Shown: positions 1 through 20,651 of the stretch, one piece after another
Position numbering within the stretch: position 1 is the stretch's first letter
Layout of the letters: every line of letters starts with the position of its first letter
IMG/VR virus record: IMGVR_UViG_3300001683_000069
Location: 1-20,651 of that record
Reading direction: 5' to 3' (one strand)
Source: a virus
DNA length: 20,651 nucleotides
Program-made: the position numbers and the translations under genes
Notes under the pieces: model-generated
Told to the model about the DNA's origin: nothing
The model's database searches: none
What the model saw: only the letters and a program-made list of their open reading frames with translations

Positions 1-75
1 ATGCCAGAACCCGCCTGTTGTCAATTGATCGCGTACTGCCTTGTCAGCAAATGGGCCTTTGTTTTTCTCACTCAT
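1..75 (-). CDS. Leftward gene, N-terminal 25 residues only (unknown)
   Basis: An open frame starts at the ATG complementary to 73-75 and runs off the left edge of the window, so only 25 codons are visible (MSEKNKGPFADKAVRD...). A strong ribosome binding site (GAGGAGAAC) lies 6-9 bases upstream, inside the last codons of the HD-hydrolase gene. The start overlaps that gene's TGA stop by 8 bases, which suggests translational coupling. The visible piece is charged, has no signal peptide and matches no family I recognise. Existence of the gene is well supported by the binding site and overlap; its function is unknown. Confidence 0.7.
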   Translation of the reverse strand, partial: MSEKNKGPFADKAVRDQLTTGGFWH

Positions 76-670
76 TATTGTTCTCCTCATAAGCATTAAC
101 GATATCCAAAGCTGTTTCCCGTAGGCTTGCATCGCCCTTGGTAAGCACTTCAATCAGCAGTCTCTTCTCTGCCATGTAGATAGGGGCGAAGCTACCTCCG
201 TAAGTAATGATGCTCTTGGAGTTATCTATCAGATCAGCCAGCTTAATGGTCTGCACTTGACTACTTTGTCCAGCCAAATGATCCCTATCCATTTTCTTAC
301 GTGTTGCACGGTTACCATCGGACAGCACGCTTACGTCTGTCATACCCAACACATACTCTGCTATCTCAGTCCTAAAACCTGCCTCGAATATGTCCTCATA
401 AGTTATGTCAGTGTCCTCAATAACATCATGAAGGAACGCAGCACTGATTATGTTGCAGTCATAGGTCACTGACGCGACCATCTTGGCAACGGCTATCGGA
501 TGAACTATGTACGGTTCACCCGTGTACTTACGCTTCTGATCCCCGTGCGCTTCTGTCGCATATCGACAGGCAAAGTCAATCAACGCCTGAGATCGTTTAC
601 TTACTATCCCGTGGTGGCGGGGTTTTGTTATTCCATGTTCACCCATTATTGTTTTTATCATCCCGTACAT
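68..670 (-). CDS. HD-domain small alarmone hydrolase-like protein (MESH1/SpoT-hydrolase type)
   Basis: The 200-residue product has the ordered motifs of the RelA/SpoT hydrolase HD family. These are KYTGEPYIVHPIAVA with His57, AAFLHDVIEDTD with the His81-Asp82 pair and Glu85-Asp86, and IKLADLIDN with Asp146 and Asn150. Members of the family use a Mn-bound HD centre to remove pyrophosphate from (p)ppGpp, and some act on related nucleotides or NADPH. The length matches a stand-alone hydrolase; no synthetase, TGS or ACT domain is present. The ATG at 670 is chosen because AGGAG lies 7 bases upstream; a later Met9 lacks such a site. The palindrome at 703-720 precedes it and the next gene overlaps its stop. 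Likely roles (inference) are lowering host alarmone during infection or neutralising toxic alarmone synthetases. The exact substrate cannot be read from the sequence. Confidence 0.88.
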   Translation of the reverse strand: MYGMIKTIMGEHGITKPRHHGIVSKRSQALIDFACRYATEAHGDQKRKYTGEPYIVHPIAVAKMVASVTYDCNIISAAFLHDVIEDTDITYEDIFEAGFRTEIAEYVLGMTDVSVLSDGNRATRKKMDRDHLAGQSSQVQTIKLADLIDNSKSIITYGGSFAPIYMAEKRLLIEVLTKGDASLRETALDIVNAYEENNNE

Positions 671-4097: not shown

Positions 4098-4727
4098 TTG
4101 AGCAATTCTGGCAAGCACTTTATTATTCTAGAACCCGAGATTGGGGTGCCCTTTTCTCCAAACGTCCCTTATGTGGATCTACGGAAACGCGCCCTTGCCG
4201 CTTGCGCGACCGCTGAACAACTGCGGCAGGTAGCGCCCCTAGATGACGCACCATATGCCAAGCTCACAGTGGCAGAGGCCGAAACAGCCGCAGCCCTGAC
4301 GCTGGCCTATGCTGAAGATCCCGTGGCTACCTCGAAACAAACCACTGCCATTGCCGACCTGACCCCTGCATCATTAGTAATGACCGGGAAGATTCTTGCA
4401 GAGTTTGGGCAGGCCGTAGCCAAAAATGCTGTGCAGATACGCCATCTCGTCACCAATAAACTCCTGCTGGAGTCCGATGGCCCTGATGCTCGCCTCCGGT
4501 TACGCGCCTTGGAGCTGCTCGGTAAGATCACCGATGTCGCCTTGTTTACTGAGAAATCTGAGATCACCGTGACCCATAAAAGTACCTCTGAACTGCGTGC
4601 TCAACTGCGGGGTAAGTTAGAGAAACTCGTTAACCCAGAATCTGATTTAACATCTGAAGCAGAGTTCACGCCGATAGACATAGACGCAGAACTGGGTACA
4701 TCCCGCTATAGTGGGGACTCCAAGTGA
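4098..4727 (+). CDS. terS: Terminase small subunit-like DNA packaging protein
   Basis: The 209-residue product lies directly upstream of the large terminase and overlaps its start by four bases. The central and C-terminal parts are helical, with VTNKLLLESDGPDARLRLRA, then LELLGKITDVALF and ITVTHKST, which resemble small-terminase proteins of related phages. These proteins recognise phage DNA and regulate the packaging motor. No classical helix-turn-helix is obvious to me. I chose TTG at 4098 because AGGAG is six bases upstream. The open frame extends back to a TTG at 4005 through the AT-rich 18-mers, with ATGs at 4026 and 4044, but those starts lack a ribosome binding site. Assignment rests on position and motif memory. 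Confidence 0.7.
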   Translation: MSNSGKHFIILEPEIGVPFSPNVPYVDLRKRALAACATAEQLRQVAPLDDAPYAKLTVAEAETAAALTLAYAEDPVATSKQTTAIADLTPASLVMTGKILAEFGQAVAKNAVQIRHLVTNKLLLESDGPDARLRLRALELLGKITDVALFTEKSEITVTHKSTSELRAQLRGKLEKLVNPESDLTSEAEFTPIDIDAELGTSRYSGDSK

Positions 4728-6337
4728 ATAGCGCAGTTTCCGCCCATTCTGGCAGGTCCAGCGGGAGAGCCTCCGGCGTGGCCTTAATACAGCCAAAAGA
4801 TTTCTCTGAGCAGGATATTGCCCTGCTGCTCCAGAACGTCGATACGATGGACGCGGCAGAGCTGGATGAGCTGGATGGGATCATTGACGAGCTGGACACC
4901 CGCAGTAAAAACAATGCTGCCTATGATGACCTGATTGAGTTCTGCAAACTGATGCAGGACGACTACATAGTAGGCAAACACCACCGCATCATGTCACGCT
5001 TGTTAATGGCGATAGAATCCGGTGATAAGGACAGGGTCTGCGTTAACATCCCGCCACGCCACGGCAAGTCGCAGATCAACTCTATCTTCTATCCTGCATG
5101 GTTCTTGGGTAGAAACCCTCGCCTGAAAGTCATGATGGTGTCCCACACCACAGACCTAGCGGTGGACTTTGGACGTAAAGTGCGCAACCTGATTGCCTCC
5201 CCCGCCTACAAAAAGATATTCCCGTTGGTGTCGCTGGCACCGGACTCCAAGTCAGCGGGGCGCTGGAATACCAACCACGGAGGTGAGTACTACGCCTGCG
5301 GCATAGGCTCCTCTATCGCTGGACGGGGCGCTGATTTGTTGATCATTGATGACGCGCACTCTGAGCAGGATGTGCTTAATGGCAACTTTGATGTGTTTGC
5401 CAAAGCCTATGAGTGGTTTACCTACGGCGCACGCCCCCGCCTGATGCCCGGAGGCCGCGTAGCGATCATAGCGACCCGCTGGCATTTGGATGATCTGACA
5501 GGTCGAGTGATCCGAGACATGGCAACCAATCCGTTGGCTGACCAGTATGATGTGATTGAGTTTCCCGCCATTGTTGAAGTCGAGGATAAGGCCACGGGCA
5601 AACTAAGTCAGAAGGCATTATGGCCTGAGTTCTTTGACCTTGATGCCCTGCTGCGTACCAAGGCATCCATGCCGCAGTTCCAGTGGAACGCCCAGTACCA
5701 GCAAGACCCCACCGCAGAAGAAGCGGCACTGATTAAACGGGATTGGTGGCGACAGTGGACACGCGAGGAACCGCCCGAGTGTGAGGCTATCATCATGTCC
5801 CTTGACTCGGCAGCGGAGACTCATAACCGTGCTGACTACACGGCCCTGACCACATGGGGAGTGTTTAATAATGAGCAGGAGGACGCGCACCACATTATCC
5901 TGCTTAACAGTATCAAGGACAGGTACGAGTTTCCTGAGCTGAAGGCGATGTGTCTGCAGCAATATGATAAGTGGCAACCGGACTCGTTTATCGTTGAGAA
6001 GAAATCATCCGGGGTAGCGGTGTATCAAGAGATGCGCCGGATGGGTATTCCTGTTAGTGAGTACACACCTCATCGGGGGTCTGGGGATAAGACTGCTAGA
6101 CTTAATTCTGTATCCGACATAGTATCGTCAGGCATGGTGTGGGTACCACAGACTCGCTGGGCAGAAGAACTCGTTGAAGAGGTGGCTGGCTTTCCGTTTG
6201 CGAGCCATGATGACCTAGTTGATAGCACAGTGATGGCACTGATGCGGTTCCGACAAGGTGGCTTCATCAGATTGCCTAGCGACTTAAAAGATGAGACCCG
6301 TTACTTCAAGGGTAACCGCCACCAAAGGTTCTACTAA
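4724..6337 (+). CDS. terL: Terminase large subunit (ATPase/nuclease)
   Basis: This is the DNA-packaging motor of 537 residues. The Walker A loop is PPRHGKS (about residues 110-116). Walker B with catalytic acid is LLIIDDAH (about 205-212). A coupling motif, IATRWHLDDLTGR, follows. The nuclease half shows the acidic clusters MSLDSAAE...RADYTAL, EKKSSGVAVYQEMRR and the near-terminal HDDLVDSTVMAL, which together form the RNase H-like metal site. The length is normal for the family. It starts at GTG (4724) overlapping the upstream TGA; only a weak GGGGA precedes it, so it is probably translationally coupled to the small subunit. It pairs with the portal encoded at 7562-10096. Confidence 0.96.
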   Translation: MNSAVSAHSGRSSGRASGVALIQPKDFSEQDIALLLQNVDTMDAAELDELDGIIDELDTRSKNNAAYDDLIEFCKLMQDDYIVGKHHRIMSRLLMAIESGDKDRVCVNIPPRHGKSQINSIFYPAWFLGRNPRLKVMMVSHTTDLAVDFGRKVRNLIASPAYKKIFPLVSLAPDSKSAGRWNTNHGGEYYACGIGSSIAGRGADLLIIDDAHSEQDVLNGNFDVFAKAYEWFTYGARPRLMPGGRVAIIATRWHLDDLTGRVIRDMATNPLADQYDVIEFPAIVEVEDKATGKLSQKALWPEFFDLDALLRTKASMPQFQWNAQYQQDPTAEEAALIKRDWWRQWTREEPPECEAIIMSLDSAAETHNRADYTALTTWGVFNNEQEDAHHIILLNSIKDRYEFPELKAMCLQQYDKWQPDSFIVEKKSSGVAVYQEMRRMGIPVSEYTPHRGSGDKTARLNSVSDIVSSGMVWVPQTRWAEELVEEVAGFPFASHDDLVDSTVMALMRFRQGGFIRLPSDLKDETRYFKGNRHQRFY

Positions 6338-6362
6338 CAACGTAACCACAAAGGAGAGAGTG

Positions 6363-6665
6363 ATGCCTTCTAAATCAAAACGCTTAGATAAAGACTTAGA
6401 TAAAGACTTAGATAAAGACTTAGATAAATTTATGCGCGAGTTGGCTGCGACCAAGAAAGCAAAATATGCCAATGCACCAATAAGTGCAGAAAATCGTATG
6501 CTTGCGGAAGAAGACCGGGGCGAGCGGGTAGAACGGTCTAATGCTACGTCAGGTATGAAGCACGGTGGCAAAGTTAAGGGCCACGCCAGAAGCTACAAGT
6601 CAGGGGGTAAAGTCCGTGGTTGTGGTATTGCTCAAAAAGGCACACGTAAAGCTAAGATGCTATAG
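6363..6665 (+). CDS. Small basic Gly/Lys-rich protein with LDKD repeats
   Basis: The product is 100 residues. The start at 6363 (MPSKSKR) has AGGAG upstream. Residues about 8-21 are nearly four copies of LDKD, encoded by a 12-base repeat (6383-6428). The C-terminus is strongly basic and Gly-rich: HGGKVKG, SGGKVRGCGIAQKG, TRKAKML. This GGKVRG.G.A..G...AKM ending recurs in small proteins of uncultured phages and often sits near terminase or portal genes; its function is not known to me. Nucleic-acid or capsid binding would fit the charge. It lies between the large terminase and an unknown structural-type gene. Confidence 0.78.
   Translation: MPSKSKRLDKDLDKDLDKDLDKFMRELAATKKAKYANAPISAENRMLAEEDRGERVERSNATSGMKHGGKVKGHARSYKSGGKVRGCGIAQKGTRKAKML
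6383..6428. repeat. 12-base tandem repeat in the small basic protein gene
   Basis: The unit CTTAGATAAAGA repeats three times plus ten bases and encodes the LDKD run. Copies are identical, so it is a recent, slippage-prone expansion that keeps the frame. Confidence 0.9.
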
Positions 6666-7561: not shown

Positions 7562-10096
7562 ATGGCAATAGATAAAACACTCAACCCCCTGCCTTCCGGT
7601 ATTGACGTAGATGCACTAGATTCTGACGAACTAGAAGGTATGGACGAGCAAATGGAAGTATTAATGCTGTCTGATGAGGAGATGGAGGCCAACACTGAGT
7701 TGTTAGAGGACGGTAGTGTTGAGATTACCTTGATTGGTGGCACTGACACGGAACAGTACATCCCCTTCGATGCCAACTTAGTAGAGCATCTTGAGGAAGA
7801 AGAGCTTACCAGCATAGCAACTGATCTGATCGAGATGATTGGCAGCGACATTAGTAGCCGCAAAGAGTGGGCTGATACCTTTGTACAGGGGCTGGATGTG
7901 CTCGGGCTTAAATATGAGACTCGTAGTGACCCGTGGGAAGGTGCCTGCGGCACGTTCTCATCCGTGTTATCTGAGGCTGCTATCCGTTTCCAAGCAGAAA
8001 CAATGTCAGAAACCTTCCCTGCTGCTGGGCCTGTAAAAACCAAGATAGTGGGTGAGGAAACAAGGGACAAGATCGACGCTGCTGAACGTGTTAGGGCAGA
8101 CATGAACTACGAGCTGACCGAACAGATGGTTGAGTATCGGCCTGAGCATGAACGCATGCTCTACAGCCTTGGTCTGGCGGGGTCAGCCTTTAAGAAAGTC
8201 TATGAAGATCCTACCCTTGGACGACAAACCGCTGTTTTTGTCCCCGCAGAGGACATTATTGTCCCCTATGGTGCCTCCCATATTGAAACTGCAGAGCGTG
8301 TTACCCACGTTATGCGTAAAACCAAGAACGAATTACGCAAGTTACAGGTCAGTGGCTTCTACATTGATGAGGAATTGGAAGAACCTGCCCCCTATCACTC
8401 AGATATTGAAGAGCGGAAGGCTGAAGAAGAGGGTATAGAGCTTAACGAAGATGATCGCTATGCCCTGTATGAGATACATGCTAACTACATTATCGAAGGA
8501 TTGGATGATAGTACGGATGATATTGCTGTACCTTACGTTATTACCATAGATAGAAGCTCTGAAAAAGTACTGGCGGTGTACCGGAACTGGGACGAAGAGG
8601 ACGAATTACGCAAAAAACGCCAACATTTCGTGCATTACGTCTATGTACCGGGGTTTGGCTTCTATGGTTTAGGGCTTATTCACATCATTGGTGGCTATGC
8701 GCGTACTGGAACCTCCCTAATACGCCAACTTGTAGACGCTGGTACGCTGGCAAACCTCCCCGGAGGGCTTAAAACACGCGGGTTACGCATCAAAAACGAC
8801 GATGAGTCCATCAATCCGGGTGAATTTAAGGATGTAGATGTCCCATCGGGCAGTATTAGGGACAATATCATGGCATTGCCCTATAAAGAGCCTAGTCAGA
8901 CGTTATTGCAACTATTAGATAAGATAACGACTGAAGGTAGGCGTTTAGGGGCTATTAGCGACATGAACATCTCTGATATGTCGGCAAATGCCCCCGTGGG
9001 GACTACTTTAGCCCTGTTAGAGCGCACATTGAAGCCAATGGCGGCGGTACAGGCGCGGGTTCACTACGCCATGAAGATGGAGTTCAAGCTCCTCAAGAAA
9101 ATAATGGCGACATTTGCCCCTGCAGAGTACGGATATGCCCCAAATAGGGGCGAAATCAGTGCTAAAGACACCGATTATGACATGGTTGAGATCATCCCGG
9201 TCAGTGATCCCAATAGCTCCACAATGGCCCAGCGGGTCATTCAGTACCAAACAGCCATGCAAATGGCTAAAGATGCCCCCCATATCTATGACCAACGCGT
9301 ACTGCATCGGCAGATGTTGGAAGTTATTGCCATCCCCAACGCGGATAAGATCGTGCCCATACCAGAGGATATGGCTCCTGTAGATCCTATCAGTGAAAAC
9401 ATGAATGCCTTGGTGGGTAAGCCGATGAAAGCGTTTATATATCAAGACAATGAGGCACATATAGCAACACATACTTCGTTTATGCAAGATCCGTCAATCA
9501 TGCAGATCATTGGGCAGAACCCTATGGCAAATCAGATTATGGCGGCTATGCACGCTCACGTTGCTGAGCATCTCGGGTTTGTCTACCGCAAGAAGATTGA
9601 AGAGAAGTTAGGCGCTACCATGCCACCCCCAGATAGTCGGTTACCAGAAGAAGTTGAGGTAACCCTGTCACAACTCGTCGCTTCTGCCGGACAGCAGCTT
9701 ACGCAGCAAAATAAACAGCAGGCAGCACAGCAACAAGCACAAGAAAAAGCCAAAGATCCTGTTATCCAAATGAATCAGGCTAAACAGCAAACAGCCGAAG
9801 CTGAAGTACAGCGCAAGGCTGCTAAAGATCAGGCTGATATTGGACTGAAGACCCGTGAGCAAGATCGCAAAGAGCTGAAAGATAAGGCCGATGCGCTGAT
9901 TGACGGTAAAGAGCTGGAGCTGCAAGAGTTGAAAGCTAAAGCCGATGCGCTGATTGACGGTAAAGAGCTGGAGCTGAAAGAGCAGGAACTGGCAGTAAAA
10001 GCGCGGTCGCACGGGCACAGCCAGCAATTAGATAAGGCTAAACACAATTCCGGGCTTGAGATTAAAGCGCAGGAATTAGCAAAGGGTGATGAGTAA
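7562..10096 (+). CDS. Portal protein (P22-like)
   Basis: The 844-residue product is the dodecameric head vertex through which DNA enters and leaves. Recognisable core motifs include EWADTFVQGLDVLGLKYE (about 102-119), SDPWEGACGTF, then RFQAETMSETFPAAGPVKT (about 122-160), and GFGFYGLGLIHIIGGYARTG with RQLVDAGTLANLPGG. It carries an acidic N-terminal extension of about 70 residues and a long Gln/Lys/Glu-rich C-terminal helix (about 700-840). That helix includes an 18-residue repeat, KADALIDGKELEL, duplicated at the DNA level. Length is above that of P22 portal (about 725), mainly because of these ends. AGAGGA precedes the ATG. Confidence 0.92.
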   Translation: MAIDKTLNPLPSGIDVDALDSDELEGMDEQMEVLMLSDEEMEANTELLEDGSVEITLIGGTDTEQYIPFDANLVEHLEEEELTSIATDLIEMIGSDISSRKEWADTFVQGLDVLGLKYETRSDPWEGACGTFSSVLSEAAIRFQAETMSETFPAAGPVKTKIVGEETRDKIDAAERVRADMNYELTEQMVEYRPEHERMLYSLGLAGSAFKKVYEDPTLGRQTAVFVPAEDIIVPYGASHIETAERVTHVMRKTKNELRKLQVSGFYIDEELEEPAPYHSDIEERKAEEEGIELNEDDRYALYEIHANYIIEGLDDSTDDIAVPYVITIDRSSEKVLAVYRNWDEEDELRKKRQHFVHYVYVPGFGFYGLGLIHIIGGYARTGTSLIRQLVDAGTLANLPGGLKTRGLRIKNDDESINPGEFKDVDVPSGSIRDNIMALPYKEPSQTLLQLLDKITTEGRRLGAISDMNISDMSANAPVGTTLALLERTLKPMAAVQARVHYAMKMEFKLLKKIMATFAPAEYGYAPNRGEISAKDTDYDMVEIIPVSDPNSSTMAQRVIQYQTAMQMAKDAPHIYDQRVLHRQMLEVIAIPNADKIVPIPEDMAPVDPISENMNALVGKPMKAFIYQDNEAHIATHTSFMQDPSIMQIIGQNPMANQIMAAMHAHVAEHLGFVYRKKIEEKLGATMPPPDSRLPEEVEVTLSQLVASAGQQLTQQNKQQAAQQQAQEKAKDPVIQMNQAKQQTAEAEVQRKAAKDQADIGLKTREQDRKELKDKADALIDGKELELQELKAKADALIDGKELELKEQELAVKARSHGHSQQLDKAKHNSGLEIKAQELAKGDE
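9887..9976. repeat. 54-base tandem duplication in the portal C-terminus
   Basis: Thirty-six bases at 9887-9922 recur exactly at 9941-9976, giving two copies of an 18-residue unit (KADALIDGKELEL...) in the predicted coiled coil. The identity at synonymous positions shows a recent duplication. Confidence 0.9.
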
Positions 10097-10296
10097 TGCC
10101 TACTACGGTATTTGATGTCCTACGTAAAAACATTAATCTCCAGATTAAGGATGCAACAGGATTACTTATTGGCGGTGGGGTCAAAGACTTCACTCAATAT
10201 AAGGATACAACAGGGTTTATTCGAGGTCTAAACTCTTGCTTACGTGAAATTGATGACCTCTCGCGGAATCTAGAAGGATATGAAGATGATAACTGA
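10096..10296 (+). CDS. Small conserved phage protein downstream of portal
   Basis: The 66-residue product starts one base inside the portal stop (TAATG), so it is translationally coupled to the portal. The pattern KDFTQYKDTTGFIRGLNSCL followed by REIDDL resembles a small family that follows the portal gene in many related phages. Its function is unknown to me. It ends acidic (EGYEDDN). It is probably largely helical and may be a head-assembly accessory factor. The next gene starts inside its 3' end. Confidence 0.75.
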   Translation: MPTTVFDVLRKNINLQIKDATGLLIGGGVKDFTQYKDTTGFIRGLNSCLREIDDLSRNLEGYEDDN

Positions 10297-10678
10297 GCAA
10301 TTGGAGCTATTCCAAGACCACCCCGAGCCAGAATATGATGTAAATGAGTGTTTACCTAGACCTATAGGGTATAGGATATTAATTGCCCTGCCCAAGGTGG
10401 ATGAGACTTTTGGCGATACTGGGTTAATAAAATCGACAAAAACAGTTCATGAAGAACATATTATGTCTATCGTGGGGTTGGTTGTTGAGCTTGGTGAGCA
10501 GTGTTATAAAGATCCAGAGAAGTTCCCTACTGGCCCTTGGTGTGAAGCAGGGGATTATGTGATGTTCCGCGCTAATAGCGGTACACGGTTTAAGTTTGGG
10601 GGGCTTGAGTATCGTTTGATGAACGATGATTCCGTTGAAGCCATCGTACCTGATCCTAAAGCCATCAGCAGAGTCTAG
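10286..10678 (+). CDS. GroES-like co-chaperonin
   Basis: The product is about 130 residues with a Cpn10-type β-barrel pattern: GYRILIALPKVDE, a TGLIKSTKT segment in the mobile-loop position, VGLVVELGEQCYKD, then GPWCEAGDYVMFRANSGTRF and YRLMNDDSVEAIV. GroES proteins cap GroEL; phage versions such as T4 gp31 help fold capsid proteins. Position between portal and scaffold/capsid genes supports a head-assembly role. Two starts are possible: ATG 10280 is only two bases from AGAAGG, and ATG 10286 is eight bases away, so 10286 is preferred. It overlaps the preceding gene. Whether it binds host GroEL cannot be judged, because the loop lacks a clear hydrophobic IVL tripeptide (it reads GLI). Confidence 0.8.
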   Translation: MITEQLELFQDHPEPEYDVNECLPRPIGYRILIALPKVDETFGDTGLIKSTKTVHEEHIMSIVGLVVELGEQCYKDPEKFPTGPWCEAGDYVMFRANSGTRFKFGGLEYRLMNDDSVEAIVPDPKAISRV

Positions 10679-12807: not shown

Positions 12808-13713
12808 ATGGCTATTTCAAGAGCACAATTACTTAAAGAACTCCTACCCGGACTTAATGCGTTATTTGGGCTGGAGTACAAAAAGTACGCTGAAGAACAT
12901 ACGATGATTTTTGAAACAGAATCTTCTGATCGTTCTTTTGAAGAAGAAACGAAACTGTCAGGTTTCAGTGCAGCCCCTGTTAAAGACGAGGGCGCAGGTA
13001 TTGAATATGATACCGCACAGGAAGCATGGACAGCGCGTTACAATCACGAGACTATTGCGATGGGCTTCGCTGTTACAGAGGAAGCTATCGAAGATAACTT
13101 GTACGACTCTCTGTCGGCTCGTTATACCAAAAGTCTTGCACGGGCTATGGCGTACACTAAGCAGGTTAAGGCAGCAGCTATCCTTAATTCCGCTTTTGCT
13201 ACGACTACCTACGGTGATGGGCAGACGCTGTGTTCTACAGCTCACCCGCTTGTATCAGGTGGTACTAACTCTAACAGGCCAACAACTGCGGCTGACCTCA
13301 ACGAAACTTCACTTGAAGCGGCATGTATTGCCATTTCTCAGTGGACGGACGAGCGTGGTTTGTTGATCGCAGCTAAGCCTAAGAAGTTATGTATCCCTTC
13401 TAACCTTCAGTTTGTGGTAACGCGTTTGCTTGAAACTGATCAGCGGGTTGGTACAGCAGATAACGATATTAATGCTATTCGTAACAACGGAACTATTCCG
13501 GGTGGTTACGGTGTTAATCATTATCTGACTGATACAGATTCATGGTTCCTAACTACGGATGTTCCTAACGGACTCAAGCACTTCAAGCGAGTAGCATTGT
13601 CTACTTCTATGGATGCTGATTTCGATACTGGTAACAGTCGTTATAAGGCGCGAGAACGATACAGCTTTGGTGTATCTGATCCGCTTGGCCTTTATGGTTC
13701 GCCGGGAGCGTAA
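12808..13713 (+). CDS. Major capsid protein (HK97-fold, Mu gpT-like)
   Basis: The 301-residue product has features of short HK97-fold capsid proteins of the Mu gpT-like type. The N-terminal helix is LLKELLPGLNALFGLEYKKY. It also has GFAVTEEAIEDNLYD, the STAHPLVSGG loop, KPKKLCIPSNLQFV, and the ending DFDTGNSRYKARERYSFG then SDPLGLYG. It lies after scaffold and decoration genes and before a strong terminator, as expected for the most abundant virion protein. AAGGAG is eight bases upstream. The short length suggests that no N-terminal delta domain is present, so the separate scaffold would do that job. Confidence 0.9.
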   Translation: MAISRAQLLKELLPGLNALFGLEYKKYAEEHTMIFETESSDRSFEEETKLSGFSAAPVKDEGAGIEYDTAQEAWTARYNHETIAMGFAVTEEAIEDNLYDSLSARYTKSLARAMAYTKQVKAAAILNSAFATTTYGDGQTLCSTAHPLVSGGTNSNRPTTAADLNETSLEAACIAISQWTDERGLLIAAKPKKLCIPSNLQFVVTRLLETDQRVGTADNDINAIRNNGTIPGGYGVNHYLTDTDSWFLTTDVPNGLKHFKRVALSTSMDADFDTGNSRYKARERYSFGVSDPLGLYGSPGA

Positions 13714-17144: not shown

Positions 17145-20100
17145 ATGACAACGCAATACACTACGATCCTTAAGTTGGCACTTCCTGTACAAGGGGAGTT
17201 AAGTGGTACTTGGGGCGATGTTGTTAATAATAATATCACCTCTATGGTCGAACAAGCGGTTGCAGGTAAAGCTGTTATTAACTCATGGACTGCTAATGCC
17301 CACACATTAACTTCAGCGGATGGCACCACTGCGGAATCACGTTGTGCAATTCTTGATCTTACGGATACGGGTACAGCCTTATCAGCAGCGGGGTCGGTTA
17401 TTTGCCCAGCGCAAACAAAACTTTATATCATAGAGAATAATACTGCACAGATTGTAACTGTTAAAACGTCTAGTGGTAGCGGAGTTGCCGTTCCTGTCAA
17501 TAAGATGATGTTGGTTTATTGTGATGGCACAAATGTTGTTGAGGGTGTTACCCATACCAATAGTCTTAGCTTAGGGACTAGTACGGTAACAGTTTCTTCC
17601 CTCCTCGACCAAGACAACATGGCATCTGATAGTGCCACTGCTCTGGCAACGCAACAGTCTATTAAAGCTTACGTTGATGCCCAAGTCGCTACAGTCGATA
17701 CGCTTGCTGAGGTGCTTGCTCTCGGGAACACGACAGGTGGAACTAACATTGTAGTTACTGCTGGCGATGCTATTACCACAAATACGATCAGTGAAACGAC
17801 TGCTGCTTCCGGCGTGACTATCGACAGTGTATTGCTGAAAGACAATGCAGTTACTGCGACAACTTTTACTGGCGCACTCACGGGTAATGTAACGGGTATC
17901 GTAGGGGCAACAACCCCCGCCGCTGGTACGTTCACAAATCTGATAGCGAATACTAATTTGGCGCTTGCTACAGGCGCGACCGTCACAGGGATTGATAATG
18001 GCACCATCGGTACAAGTGCTACGCTGCTGGCGACACAAGGGGCTATTAAAACCTACGTTGATGCTCAAGTAGGTACTGTAGACACACTGGCTGAAATCTT
18101 AGCCCTTGGTAATGTTACTGGTGGCACTGATCTAGTAGTTTCTATTGGTGATGATATACAGACGCTAACCGCAGGGACTTCAAACCTCCGCTTGGGGCTT
18201 GGTGCGGGAGCCGCGATTGCTAGTGGTGGTAACTACTCGGTGCTTTTGGGAGATTCAGCAGGGGCTGCAATCACCACTGGGATACAAAACACAGCGATAG
18301 GTTTCAGAGCCGCATGGAAAACTACTACGGGCTACAATAACATAGCGATAGGCTCCCAAACTTTCAGAGAGAACACCACAGGGTGGCAAAATGTAGCCAT
18401 TGGAGGAGCCGCTTTATTTACCAACACCACGGGGAATTACAATACTGCGGTTGGGACTAGCGCAATGTGGGGCAACACCACAGGGTCGAATAACGCAGCG
18501 TTTGGCTGGAGTGCTTTATATAACAACACCACAGGCATTAATAATACAGCATTGGGTTGGATAGCTTTAAAGGCCAACACCACTGCCTCTTATAACACTG
18601 GAGTAGGCTATCAGGCTTTAACTGCCAACACCACTGGAGGAAATAACACAGCCATAGGCCAAACCGCTTTAGCAGCTAACACCACAGCATCTAACAATAC
18701 AGCTGTTGGTTATCAATCTTTATACACCAACACCACAGTAAGTAGCTTGACCGCAGTCGGCTATCAAGCGTTGTATGCAAATACCACAGGTACTGTTAAT
18801 ACTGCTGTCGGTTATCAAGCGTTAAAAGCCAACACAACCGGATACAGTAATACAGCCGTTGGTCTTAATGCTTTAGCAGCAAACATTACCGGACATAGTA
18901 GTACAGCCGTAGGCACGTATGCGTTATATGTCAACACAGCTATTGGTAACACGGGAATAGGAGAACAAACTTTATTCGCCAATACCACTGGCGTTAATAA
19001 TACAGCAGTTGGTAGACGGGCTTTACAGGACAACACCACGGGGCAGCAACACGCAGCCGTTGGTATTAATGCTTTAGCTAATAACACCACTGGGGGTAAT
19101 AACACAGCGATGGGTGCAAGCGCTTTAAGCGCCAACACCACAGGTGGTGCCAATACAGCAGTCGGCAATGGTGCTATGGGTGGGAATACCACAGGCCTAG
19201 ACGGGGTCTCAGTAGGTTACAACAGCCAGATGACAGCAAGCGGCGGCGGCAACACATCTGTAGGTAAGTGGACTCTGTTTAGCAACACCGCATCCAACCT
19301 AACAGCAATCGGGCGTGATTCTTTATTTAGCAACACCACTGGCACAGGTAACGTAGCAGTAGGCGCATATTCGTTAAGAGCCAACACCACTGGGAGTAAC
19401 AATATAGCCGTTGGCTATCAGTCTTTATACGTCAACACCACCGGAGGCTATAACACAGCCGTTGGTACATATTCGTTAGACGCTAATACGACAGGTATTA
19501 ATAATACAGCCCTTGGATACACGGCTTTAAGCGCCAACACCACTGGCACTAATAACACAGCTACTGGTTATCAGACTTTATTCAACAACACCACTGGCAT
19601 TAATAATACAGCTTTTGGGGGTTATGCTTTAGGCGTCAACACTACAGGAAATAACAACGCCGCTTCTGGCTTCCAATCTTTATTCTCCAACACCACGGGT
19701 TCGAATAATGCTGCTCTTGGATACACGGCTTTATTCGCTAACACCACAGGTGCTAGTAACGTAGCGGTTGGTCTACAAGCATTATACTCAAACACCACAG
19801 CGAGTAATAACTCAGCCCTTGGTTATCAGGTTCTATACTCCAATACCACTGGGATTAGAAACACGGCTCTGGGTTTTCAAGCCTTGTACTACAACACTAC
19901 AGGTGGATACAACACAGCCGTTGGTGCATATTCATTAGACGCAAACACGACAGGGGCTAACAACGTAGCGGTTGGCTACAATGCTTTAACCTCTAATACC
20001 ACAGGGGCAACTAATGTAGCCGTTGGTCCATACGCATTAAACGCCAACACCACAGGCCCGAGTAACACTGCCACTGGTTATGCAGCTTTGAGTGCCAACA

Positions 20101-20651
20101 CCACTGGCACATCCAACGTAGCGTTTGGTCAAAGCGCTTTAAACAACAATACAACTGGGGGTTATAGTTCAGCGATAGGGCTTGAAGCGCTATATACCAA
20201 CACCACTGGCGGCAGTAACATAGCGCTCGGATACCGTGCGCTGCTGAGAAACACCACTGGCTCGGGTAATACTGCCCTATCAGGCAGTGCATTATTTGAG
20301 AACACAACTGGCGGAAGTAACACAGCAGTCGGCCTTAGTGCGCTAAATCAAAACACCACTGGGCATCAGAATTTAGCCGTTGGTTATTCTGCTTTACAGA
20401 ACAGCACTACCGCGTTTAATAACACTGCTCTAGGCTATCAAGCCTTGTTCTACAACACCACCGTAGGCAACCTAACAGCACTCGGGTATCGAGCTTTATT
20501 TTCAAACACTACGGGTACTAATAACGTTGCTTCTGGATACGAAGCTTTAACCGCAAACACTACAGGCGGTTACAACACAGCTACGGGCTATCAAGCTTTA
20601 AAGGCTAACACCACGGGAGGTTTTAACACTGCTATAGGCCAAACCGCTTTA
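17145..20651 (+). CDS. Giant tail-fibre/adhesin protein, C-terminus outside window
   Basis: The reading frame is open for 1169 codons and continues past the right edge. Residues about 1-165 form an N-terminal attachment region (YTTILKLALPVQGELSGTWG). Residues about 167-338 contain two copies of a 44-residue stalk motif (ATQ..IK.YVDAQV.TVDTLAE). From about residue 382 to the end there are 46 complete 17-residue repeats plus a partial one, consensus NTAVGYQALxANTTGxN. The repeat recalls the NSVAIG β-roll repeats of YadA-type trimeric adhesins, so a trimeric β-roll or β-helix fibre is inferred. GAGG lies upstream of the ATG. A C-terminal trimerisation or chaperone domain is expected but not visible. 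It probably mediates host attachment. Confidence 0.88.
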   Translation, partial: MTTQYTTILKLALPVQGELSGTWGDVVNNNITSMVEQAVAGKAVINSWTANAHTLTSADGTTAESRCAILDLTDTGTALSAAGSVICPAQTKLYIIENNTAQIVTVKTSSGSGVAVPVNKMMLVYCDGTNVVEGVTHTNSLSLGTSTVTVSSLLDQDNMASDSATALATQQSIKAYVDAQVATVDTLAEVLALGNTTGGTNIVVTAGDAITTNTISETTAASGVTIDSVLLKDNAVTATTFTGALTGNVTGIVGATTPAAGTFTNLIANTNLALATGATVTGIDNGTIGTSATLLATQGAIKTYVDAQVGTVDTLAEILALGNVTGGTDLVVSIGDDIQTLTAGTSNLRLGLGAGAAIASGGNYSVLLGDSAGAAITTGIQNTAIGFRAAWKTTTGYNNIAIGSQTFRENTTGWQNVAIGGAALFTNTTGNYNTAVGTSAMWGNTTGSNNAAFGWSALYNNTTGINNTALGWIALKANTTASYNTGVGYQALTANTTGGNNTAIGQTALAANTTASNNTAVGYQSLYTNTTVSSLTAVGYQALYANTTGTVNTAVGYQALKANTTGYSNTAVGLNALAANITGHSSTAVGTYALYVNTAIGNTGIGEQTLFANTTGVNNTAVGRRALQDNTTGQQHAAVGINALANNTTGGNNTAMGASALSANTTGGANTAVGNGAMGGNTTGLDGVSVGYNSQMTASGGGNTSVGKWTLFSNTASNLTAIGRDSLFSNTTGTGNVAVGAYSLRANTTGSNNIAVGYQSLYVNTTGGYNTAVGTYSLDANTTGINNTALGYTALSANTTGTNNTATGYQTLFNNTTGINNTAFGGYALGVNTTGNNNAASGFQSLFSNTTGSNNAALGYTALFANTTGASNVAVGLQALYSNTTASNNSALGYQVLYSNTTGIRNTALGFQALYYNTTGGYNTAVGAYSLDANTTGANNVAVGYNALTSNTTGATNVAVGPYALNANTTGPSNTATGYAALSANTTGTSNVAFGQSALNNNTTGGYSSAIGLEALYTNTTGGSNIALGYRALLRNTTGSGNTALSGSALFENTTGGSNTAVGLSALNQNTTGHQNLAVGYSALQNSTTAFNNTALGYQALFYNTTVGNLTALGYRALFSNTTGTNNVASGYEALTANTTGGYNTATGYQALKANTTGGFNTAIGQTAL
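17643..18158. repeat. Duplicated 44-residue stalk module in the fibre gene
   Basis: Segments 17643-17774 and 18027-18158 are each 132 bases. They encode the same pattern, LATQ..IK.YVDAQV.TVDTLAE.LALGN.TGGT..VV..GD.I. They are diverged in DNA. The module is common in fibre proteins of aquatic phages and probably forms trimeric stalk segments. Confidence 0.8.
18288..20651. repeat. 51-base coding repeat array (17-residue NTAVG...NTTG units)
   Basis: Forty-six complete units and nine residues of another follow one another with no other sequence between them. Most units are exactly 51 bases. The three units at about 18900-18947, 19203-19250 and 19251-19298 are one codon short. Invariant or near-invariant positions are Asn1, Ala3, Gly5, Leu9 and Asn12-Thr-Thr. 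Positions 6-7, 10-11 and 16-17 vary most. Units are diverged in DNA, so the array is old, and its length may vary between relatives by recombination. Confidence 0.93.

Follow-up and report, generated by a model that had tools for sequence, protein, structure and literature searches.

A long tandem array of 17-residue units, probably a beta-roll shaft, in a fibre gene of an uncultivated tailed phage

We analysed a window of 20,651 bases, which is the whole of IMG/VR record IMGVR_UViG_3300001683_000069 (classed linear), and in particular the gene at its 3' end, which encodes a fibre protein containing a long array of 17-residue repeats. The source is an uncultivated tailed phage. Taken as a whole, the gene is best explained as encoding a tail fibre or side spike that is anchored N-terminally, has a shaft folded as a roll of the YadA type and ends in a C-terminal S74 domain, and we consider this explanation likely. 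The array is long, yet ordinary within a widespread family of fibre shafts, since the same kind of shaft was found in many phages and in some bacteria. A previous sequence-only reading of this DNA had proposed a fibre gene, which our analysis supports, and had called the array extreme, which is too strong a word since 14 of 66 complete relatives have at least 46 units, the longest having 102. The coordinates of the annotated features are collected in Table 1.

Forty-six windows of 17 residues scored as units in a profile parse of the translated fibre gene, two of them lying upstream of position 18288. The main array that begins at this position consists of 44 units of 17 residues, one of 16 and one of 15, the two irregular units having been left as gaps by the parser, and of the first 9 residues of a further unit (44x17+16+15+9 = 788 residues, corresponding to 18288-20651). 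The earlier count of at least 46 tandem units from 18288 is thereby borne out, and so is the statement that the window ends inside the array; the record stops 9 residues into the next unit, the C-terminus of the fibre gene is not in the record, and the unit count is a lower bound. Residue shuffles of the protein from position 351 on yielded a mean of 2.5 units and a maximum of 7 in 200 shuffles. The previously given start holds for the main array, but two divergent units come before it. These opening units score 24.9 and 29.5, and the later ones 30.8-53.6 with the exception of the weak unit at 19203. As read from the sequence, both irregular units are short in or beside the Asn-Thr-Thr loop.

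The entropy per position peaks at three pairs of positions within the unit, namely 6-7 (3.16/3.01 bits), 10-11 (3.50/2.83 bits) and 16-17 (3.22/2.57 bits), as expected from the earlier description of variable pairs at fixed places. The most variable columns are identical in the family, which was represented by 2825 units from 92 non-redundant relatives after units scoring 25 or less were left out. Five positions are conserved in the window, A3 (41/46), G5 (45/46), N12 (41/46), T13 (43/46) and T14 (44/46), and Gly 5 is kept in 2822 of the 2825 family units. The conserved glycine and Asn-Thr-Thr stretch noticed before were therefore recovered, whereas the glycosylation role implied by the term sequon is unsupported. 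The coding stretch of the NTAIGQTAL unit (unit 8) that recurs at the window end had been described as identical over 19 bases; the exact repeat is 18 bases long.

Repeated 21-base words were absent from the entire fibre gene, which makes it unlikely that the assembled part arose by collapsing or looping of a repeat at the usual word sizes. It is very improbable that the length of the array, or its stop at the contig end, was produced by the repeats during assembly; the record does terminate within the array, but the gene has no repeated word of this size and many complete relatives have arrays as large. A repeat-driven assembly break was considered separately and rejected, contig ends not being enriched in arrays (17 were found within arrays, 2.1 kb on average, and 35 in the 4 kb after arrays).

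Relatives were collected by searches that kept the best 80 loci or returned 14, and the unit-number statistics describe that sample. Near-identical copies were removed with a list compiled by hand, which took out the window along with 25 others and brought 118 open reading frames (ORFs) down to 92. Sixty-six of the 92 have both ends in their locus and are referred to as complete, while 75 have the 3' end in the locus and provide C-termini. The complete relatives contain 6 to 102 units with a median of 33.5, and two relatives designated L090 and L091 have unbroken arrays of 100 and 101 units. The fibre protein matches 101 of 50,697 phage records, Pelagibacter phage HTVC112P among them. The same unit was parsed in four cultivated phages, Pelagibacter phage HTVC111P (28 units), Methylophilales phage Venkman (29), Prochlorococcus phage P-SSM2 (29) and Bacillus phage SPO1 (gp2.52, 9 units), which differ from the window in their lower unit numbers and in their genomes. 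In cultivated phages the array proteins carry tail fibre, adhesion or tail spike annotations. Predicted giant-virus proteins and bacterial genome contigs contain similar arrays, and 59 bacterial loci with relatives were listed, many of them titled Bacteroidota. Array genes were also observed as neighbours on a single contig, with three in L165 (3294-10614) and three in L141 (up to 7947), so that a single phage may have several such fibres.

The N-terminal domain of the fibre protein, a candidate virion anchor, was found at the query start (position 15 or earlier) in 70 ORFs from the best 80 loci. Over this domain, 34 distinct closed genes show 59.8-81.5% identity; they have 0 to 24 units and lengths of 210 to 1691 residues. 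As the maximum among these 34 genes is 24 units, the window array is the longest seen here for its anchor type. Named phages share the anchor at 31-44% identity, and it heads unit-free proteins in DSL-LC04 (217), HTVC027P (234), HTVC023P (225) and MinM2 (411 positions, stop counted). It is followed by two copies of a linker module, further copies of which were seen by eye in the translation of the relative L011.

At the other end of the protein, Peptidase_S74 (PF13884) was identified by Pfam in 66 of the 75 non-redundant C-termini and was the only family found there at E<=0.001. The other nine gave no Peptidase_S74 match; L090 has no S74 motif and, judged by its sequence, a different kind of C-terminus. 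All five distinct closed genes that combine this N-terminal domain with at least 7 units have the S74 motif. Since most array genes of relatives end in S74, the C-terminal S74 chaperone of the window gene probably lies beyond the contig end.

The relation of the unit to the YadA-type roll is seen first in its motif. The accessible part of a paper on the trimeric autotransporter BpaC (PMC9543794) gives the beta-roll motif as GxNSVAIGAxSxAx, with 14-15 residues and a rise of 4.8 angstrom per turn, insertions occurring between positions 14 and 1, and 42 predicted turns in BpaC, which resembles the window in its many turns. This motif matches the window units in a single register (score 20.4, next rotation 5.6), and 22 of 20000 shuffled motifs scored as well. 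In the fitted register, G15 of the unit takes motif position 1 and is followed by x, N, N, T, A, V and G, the last being the nearly invariant Gly 5 at motif position 8 (2822/2825 family units, 45/46 window units). The unit thus shares with the YadA-like heads (YadA, UspA1, BpaC, BoaA, CbpF) the register, Gly at 8, Thr/Val at 5 and Val/Ile/Leu at 7. It differs from them in having 17 residues per turn, compared with the 14-15 reported, the three extra residues being Asn-Thr-Thr and falling between motif positions 14 and 1. Of 5 records searched with the Pfam family YadA_head (PF05658), only the relative L081 had an array gene scoring above the cut-off (25.3 vs 25 bits). When L081 was searched against solved structures, weak and mixed matches were obtained, the best at E 0.011 to 7ar9 (chain name CA3). 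Pfam matches to array segments at E<=1 were spread over 21 families, most of them unrelated.

Two 12-unit segments, 19503-20114 (m68057361b233) and 18237-18848 (mc83562918050), were modelled by AlphaFold as single chains. Both models are regular solenoids in which every 17 residues complete one turn, with a mean predicted local distance difference test (pLDDT) score of 89.1 for the first segment and 90.3 for the second. The best matches of the first model are trimeric autotransporter heads, led by UspA1 (Z 17.6, root mean square deviation 2.1, 179 aligned, 27% identity) and including CbpF (Z 17.2, 20%); lower in the ranking come BpaC (Z 13.9, 34%) and BoaA (Z 12.7, 30%, root mean square deviation 5.7). 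Right-handed beta-helices are not among the matches listed for this model.

Several observations weigh against a fibre with a YadA-type shaft and an S74 end. Left-handed GlmU-type transferases, at Z about 15, fall between or close behind the autotransporter heads in the matches of the first model. The second model aligns to right-handed beta-helices (NosD, Z 14.9; Dettilon tailspike, Z 14.6) at 6-13% identity, and no YadA-like head is among its listed matches, which is not proof against such heads. This second model is also the better supported internally, with three of five AlphaFold models at 86.8-90.3 as against one of five for the first. In a viral model library searched at E<=0.001, 89 models match the first model and 20 the second, a split which indicates that AlphaFold itself yields both hands. 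Foldseek returned no PDB match at E<=0.001, and the sequence searches reached no solved autotransporter head. YadA_head matched 2 of 37 array segments, weakly; it had no match in the window gene, and hmmscan at E<=0.01 did not list it for L081. Moreover, units are absent from 24 of the 34 distinct closed genes that carry this N-terminal domain, and the S74 domain is not within the window.

Single-chain prediction as applied here leaves the handedness of the solenoid unsettled, because the two modelled segments, which come from the same array, resemble solenoids of opposite hand; the beta-roll proposed earlier therefore stands as a predicted regular solenoid in both segments, with the models split on its hand. 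If the hand were right, the units would be turns of a tailspike-like right-handed beta-helix presenting an elongated surface in each fibre chain. We regard this as rather unlikely, although it is a serious rival: the second model aligns over nearly its full length with right-handed helices that include phage tailspikes, it is in agreement with 20 models of the viral library, and S74 follows other beta-helical shafts in the published fibres described in the available part of PMC10769870. The identity in those alignments is 6-13%, however, compared with 27-34% for UspA1, BpaC and BoaA and 20% for CbpF in the first model, the left-handed roll motif fits one register, and the 89 library models side with the first model. 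We take the left-handed roll as the more likely fold.

With the left-handed roll as the shaft, a fibre can be pictured as follows. The N-terminal domain would anchor the fibre to the virion, as suggested by gene order and conservation. Each 17-residue unit would be one beta-solenoid turn, most likely of a YadA-type left-handed parallel beta-roll, in which the three extra residues (Asn-Thr-Thr) would sit in the loop between turns. The stacked turns may form a stiff shaft, and 48 turns at the 4.8 angstrom rise of BpaC would extend to about 23 nm. The conserved Gly, Ala and Leu residues, together with Asn-Thr-Thr, would maintain the turn, and the simplest reading of the variable pairs is as surface positions. 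If the gene behaves as its relatives suggest, the S74 chaperone expected past the contig end would direct folding of the chains as a trimer, after which it would remove itself by self-cleavage.

The sequence-only reading had further suggested that repeat recombination could set fibre length or host range. As a contingency locus, the array would gain or lose units by recombination and so alter the length and surface of the fibre, hence its host range, which we think unlikely. An observation in its favour comes from L090 and L091, which are one exact 51-base in-frame tandem unit apart (100 vs 101 units); their global alignment has 12 mismatches in 15 kb aligned and zero in the array. The range of 6 to 102 units across the complete relatives points the same way, and the available part of the BpaC paper (PMC9543794) speculates on this route for autotransporters. 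However, the difference between L090 and L091 could have been made by the assembler, and no whole-unit difference was found in the other 13 of the 14 near-identical array groups (one of these, L100/L102, differs by 2 residues); the groups do not include pairs with a copy truncated inside its array. Variation in repeat number among near-identical relatives was thus detected in one group of 14. Neither point changes (in near-identical pairs, L090/L091 left out) nor, as mentioned above, contig ends are concentrated in arrays. The ideas of repeat recombination and host-range change depend on this one pair of relatives.

The units of the window also speak against a contingency locus. Their mean DNA identity is 57% with no pair above 84%, and adjacency brings no clear gain in similarity (lag-1 z = 1.8, computed without the two opening units and the weak unit at 19203-19253). 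The available text of the BpaC paper describes the DNA of BpaC units as very similar, a further difference from the window. Lag 11, one of the 12 tested, gave an excess (z 2.7 for the window, 3.7 for L090) from which we draw no conclusion. Recent tandem expansion of the window array was rejected on these grounds; gain or loss of a whole unit was seen in the L090/L091 pair, and recent repeat recombination in this array is not supported. The most similar pair, at 84% (units at 19452 and 19911), was reached by 7 of 500 column-permuted arrays and hints at an old copy event. In a survey of 87 arrays of at least 15 units, only nine had any unit pair above 90% identity and three an adjacent one; the neighbour mean exceeded the all-pair mean in 69 of the 87 by a median of 0.007.

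The nearest relative, L009, is 85% identical to the window over residues 1-212, and the first divergent unit is 94% identical in protein sequence to its counterpart. The regular units are not collinear between the two, their best DNA matches being 0.55-0.84. A unit containing YSLDANTT occurs twice in the window (19452-19502 and 19911-19961) and twice in L009 (10165 and 10624), at different places. These copies, which count in favour of a contingency locus, suggest shuffled multi-unit blocks. What emerges is a set of old arrays that have diverged, in which unit-level events are rare and large parts are exchanged, and not a process of rapid repeat expansion.

A broader proposal, which we put forward tentatively as possible but not probable, is that the 17-residue subclass of the YadA beta-roll with its Asn-Thr-Thr insertion is a swappable shaft cassette; one anchor type would be combined with 0 to at least 46 units, whole-unit gain or loss would tune length, and the variable pairs would alter the surface. 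In the simple picture the number of turns could set the fibre length, and one anchor type with 0 to at least 46 units offers a natural series for the effect of shaft length. The analysis sets phage fibre repeats of a large and mostly unnamed class beside a well-studied adhesin fold, to which the window contributes a long example and no new principle.

Fibre-shaft arrays of this kind were known before, from phage records, PHROG families and the pelagiphage fibres reported in 2014 (PMC3909814). The part of that report available to us describes a pelagiphage tail fibre with YadA-like (3S6L_A) and S74 domains, and metagenomic coverage that falls over the YadA-like part of such fibres. Likened by description only, these are marine phage fibre genes whose domains include a YadA-like part and S74, but with a T7-like N-terminal domain where the window has another. 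The trimeric autotransporters differ from the window in that it carries a phage gene whose relatives have S74 and not a membrane anchor. The mosaic adhesive trimer (MAT) fibres of Bdellovibrio are, like the fibre proposed here, long, trimeric and beta-helical and end in S74 or other tips, but they are bacterial surface proteins, and the text available from PMC10769870 does not mention the 17-residue unit. No description of the 17-residue Asn-Thr-Thr unit as such was found in the open-access literature searched, which is not proof of absence.

Table 1. Coordinates of the features annotated in the window
Feature	Position	Strand	Basis
Fibre gene, 1169 residues, open at window end	17145..20651	+	ORF list
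N-terminal anchor domain (putative), residues 1-130	17145..17534	+	Conservation across fibres with differing C-terminal parts
Linker module copy 1, residues 173-203	17661..17753	+	25/31 residues identical to residues 301-331
Linker module copy 2, residues 301-331	18045..18137	+	25/31 residues identical to residues 173-203
Two divergent units opening the array, one extra residue between	18183..18287 (18183-18233, 18237-18287)	+	Profile parse
Main array, 46 units and first 9 residues of the next	18288..20651	+	Profile parse, shuffles
18-base stretch in NTAIGQTAL unit, identical to window end 20634-20651	18654..18671	+	Exact-match comparison
Irregular 16-residue unit	18900..18947	+	16-residue gap in parse
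Weak unit 19203-19253 and irregular 15-residue unit 19254-19298	19203..19298	+	Score 17.1; 15-residue gap
Terminase large subunit	4724-6337		PHROGs
Portal	7562-10096	+	PHROGs
Major head protein	12808-13713		PHROGs

The gene context is that of a tailed phage, with terminase, portal, major head and further structural genes followed downstream by the fibre gene. PHROG matches of the fibre gene are to virion structural proteins (phrog_23837, phrog_6002) and a tail spike (phrog_4636). Among named phages, the terminase is nearest to those of Pelagibacter phages HTVC027P and HTVC023P and of phages 023Pt_psg01 and DSL-LC04, at 45-48% identity.

Four further genes drew our attention. A protein encoded at 68-670 (-) has an HD_4 domain above the Pfam cut-off (E 2.1e-15), which we take to be of the kind found in (p)ppGpp hydrolases. 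A Cpn10 (GroES-type co-chaperonin) domain, also above the Pfam cut-off, is encoded at 10280-10678 (+), between the portal and major head genes. The translation of a small protein at 6291-6665 (+) contains a run of DLDK repeats, and the C-terminal part of the translated portal protein contains two copies of KADALIDGKELEL.

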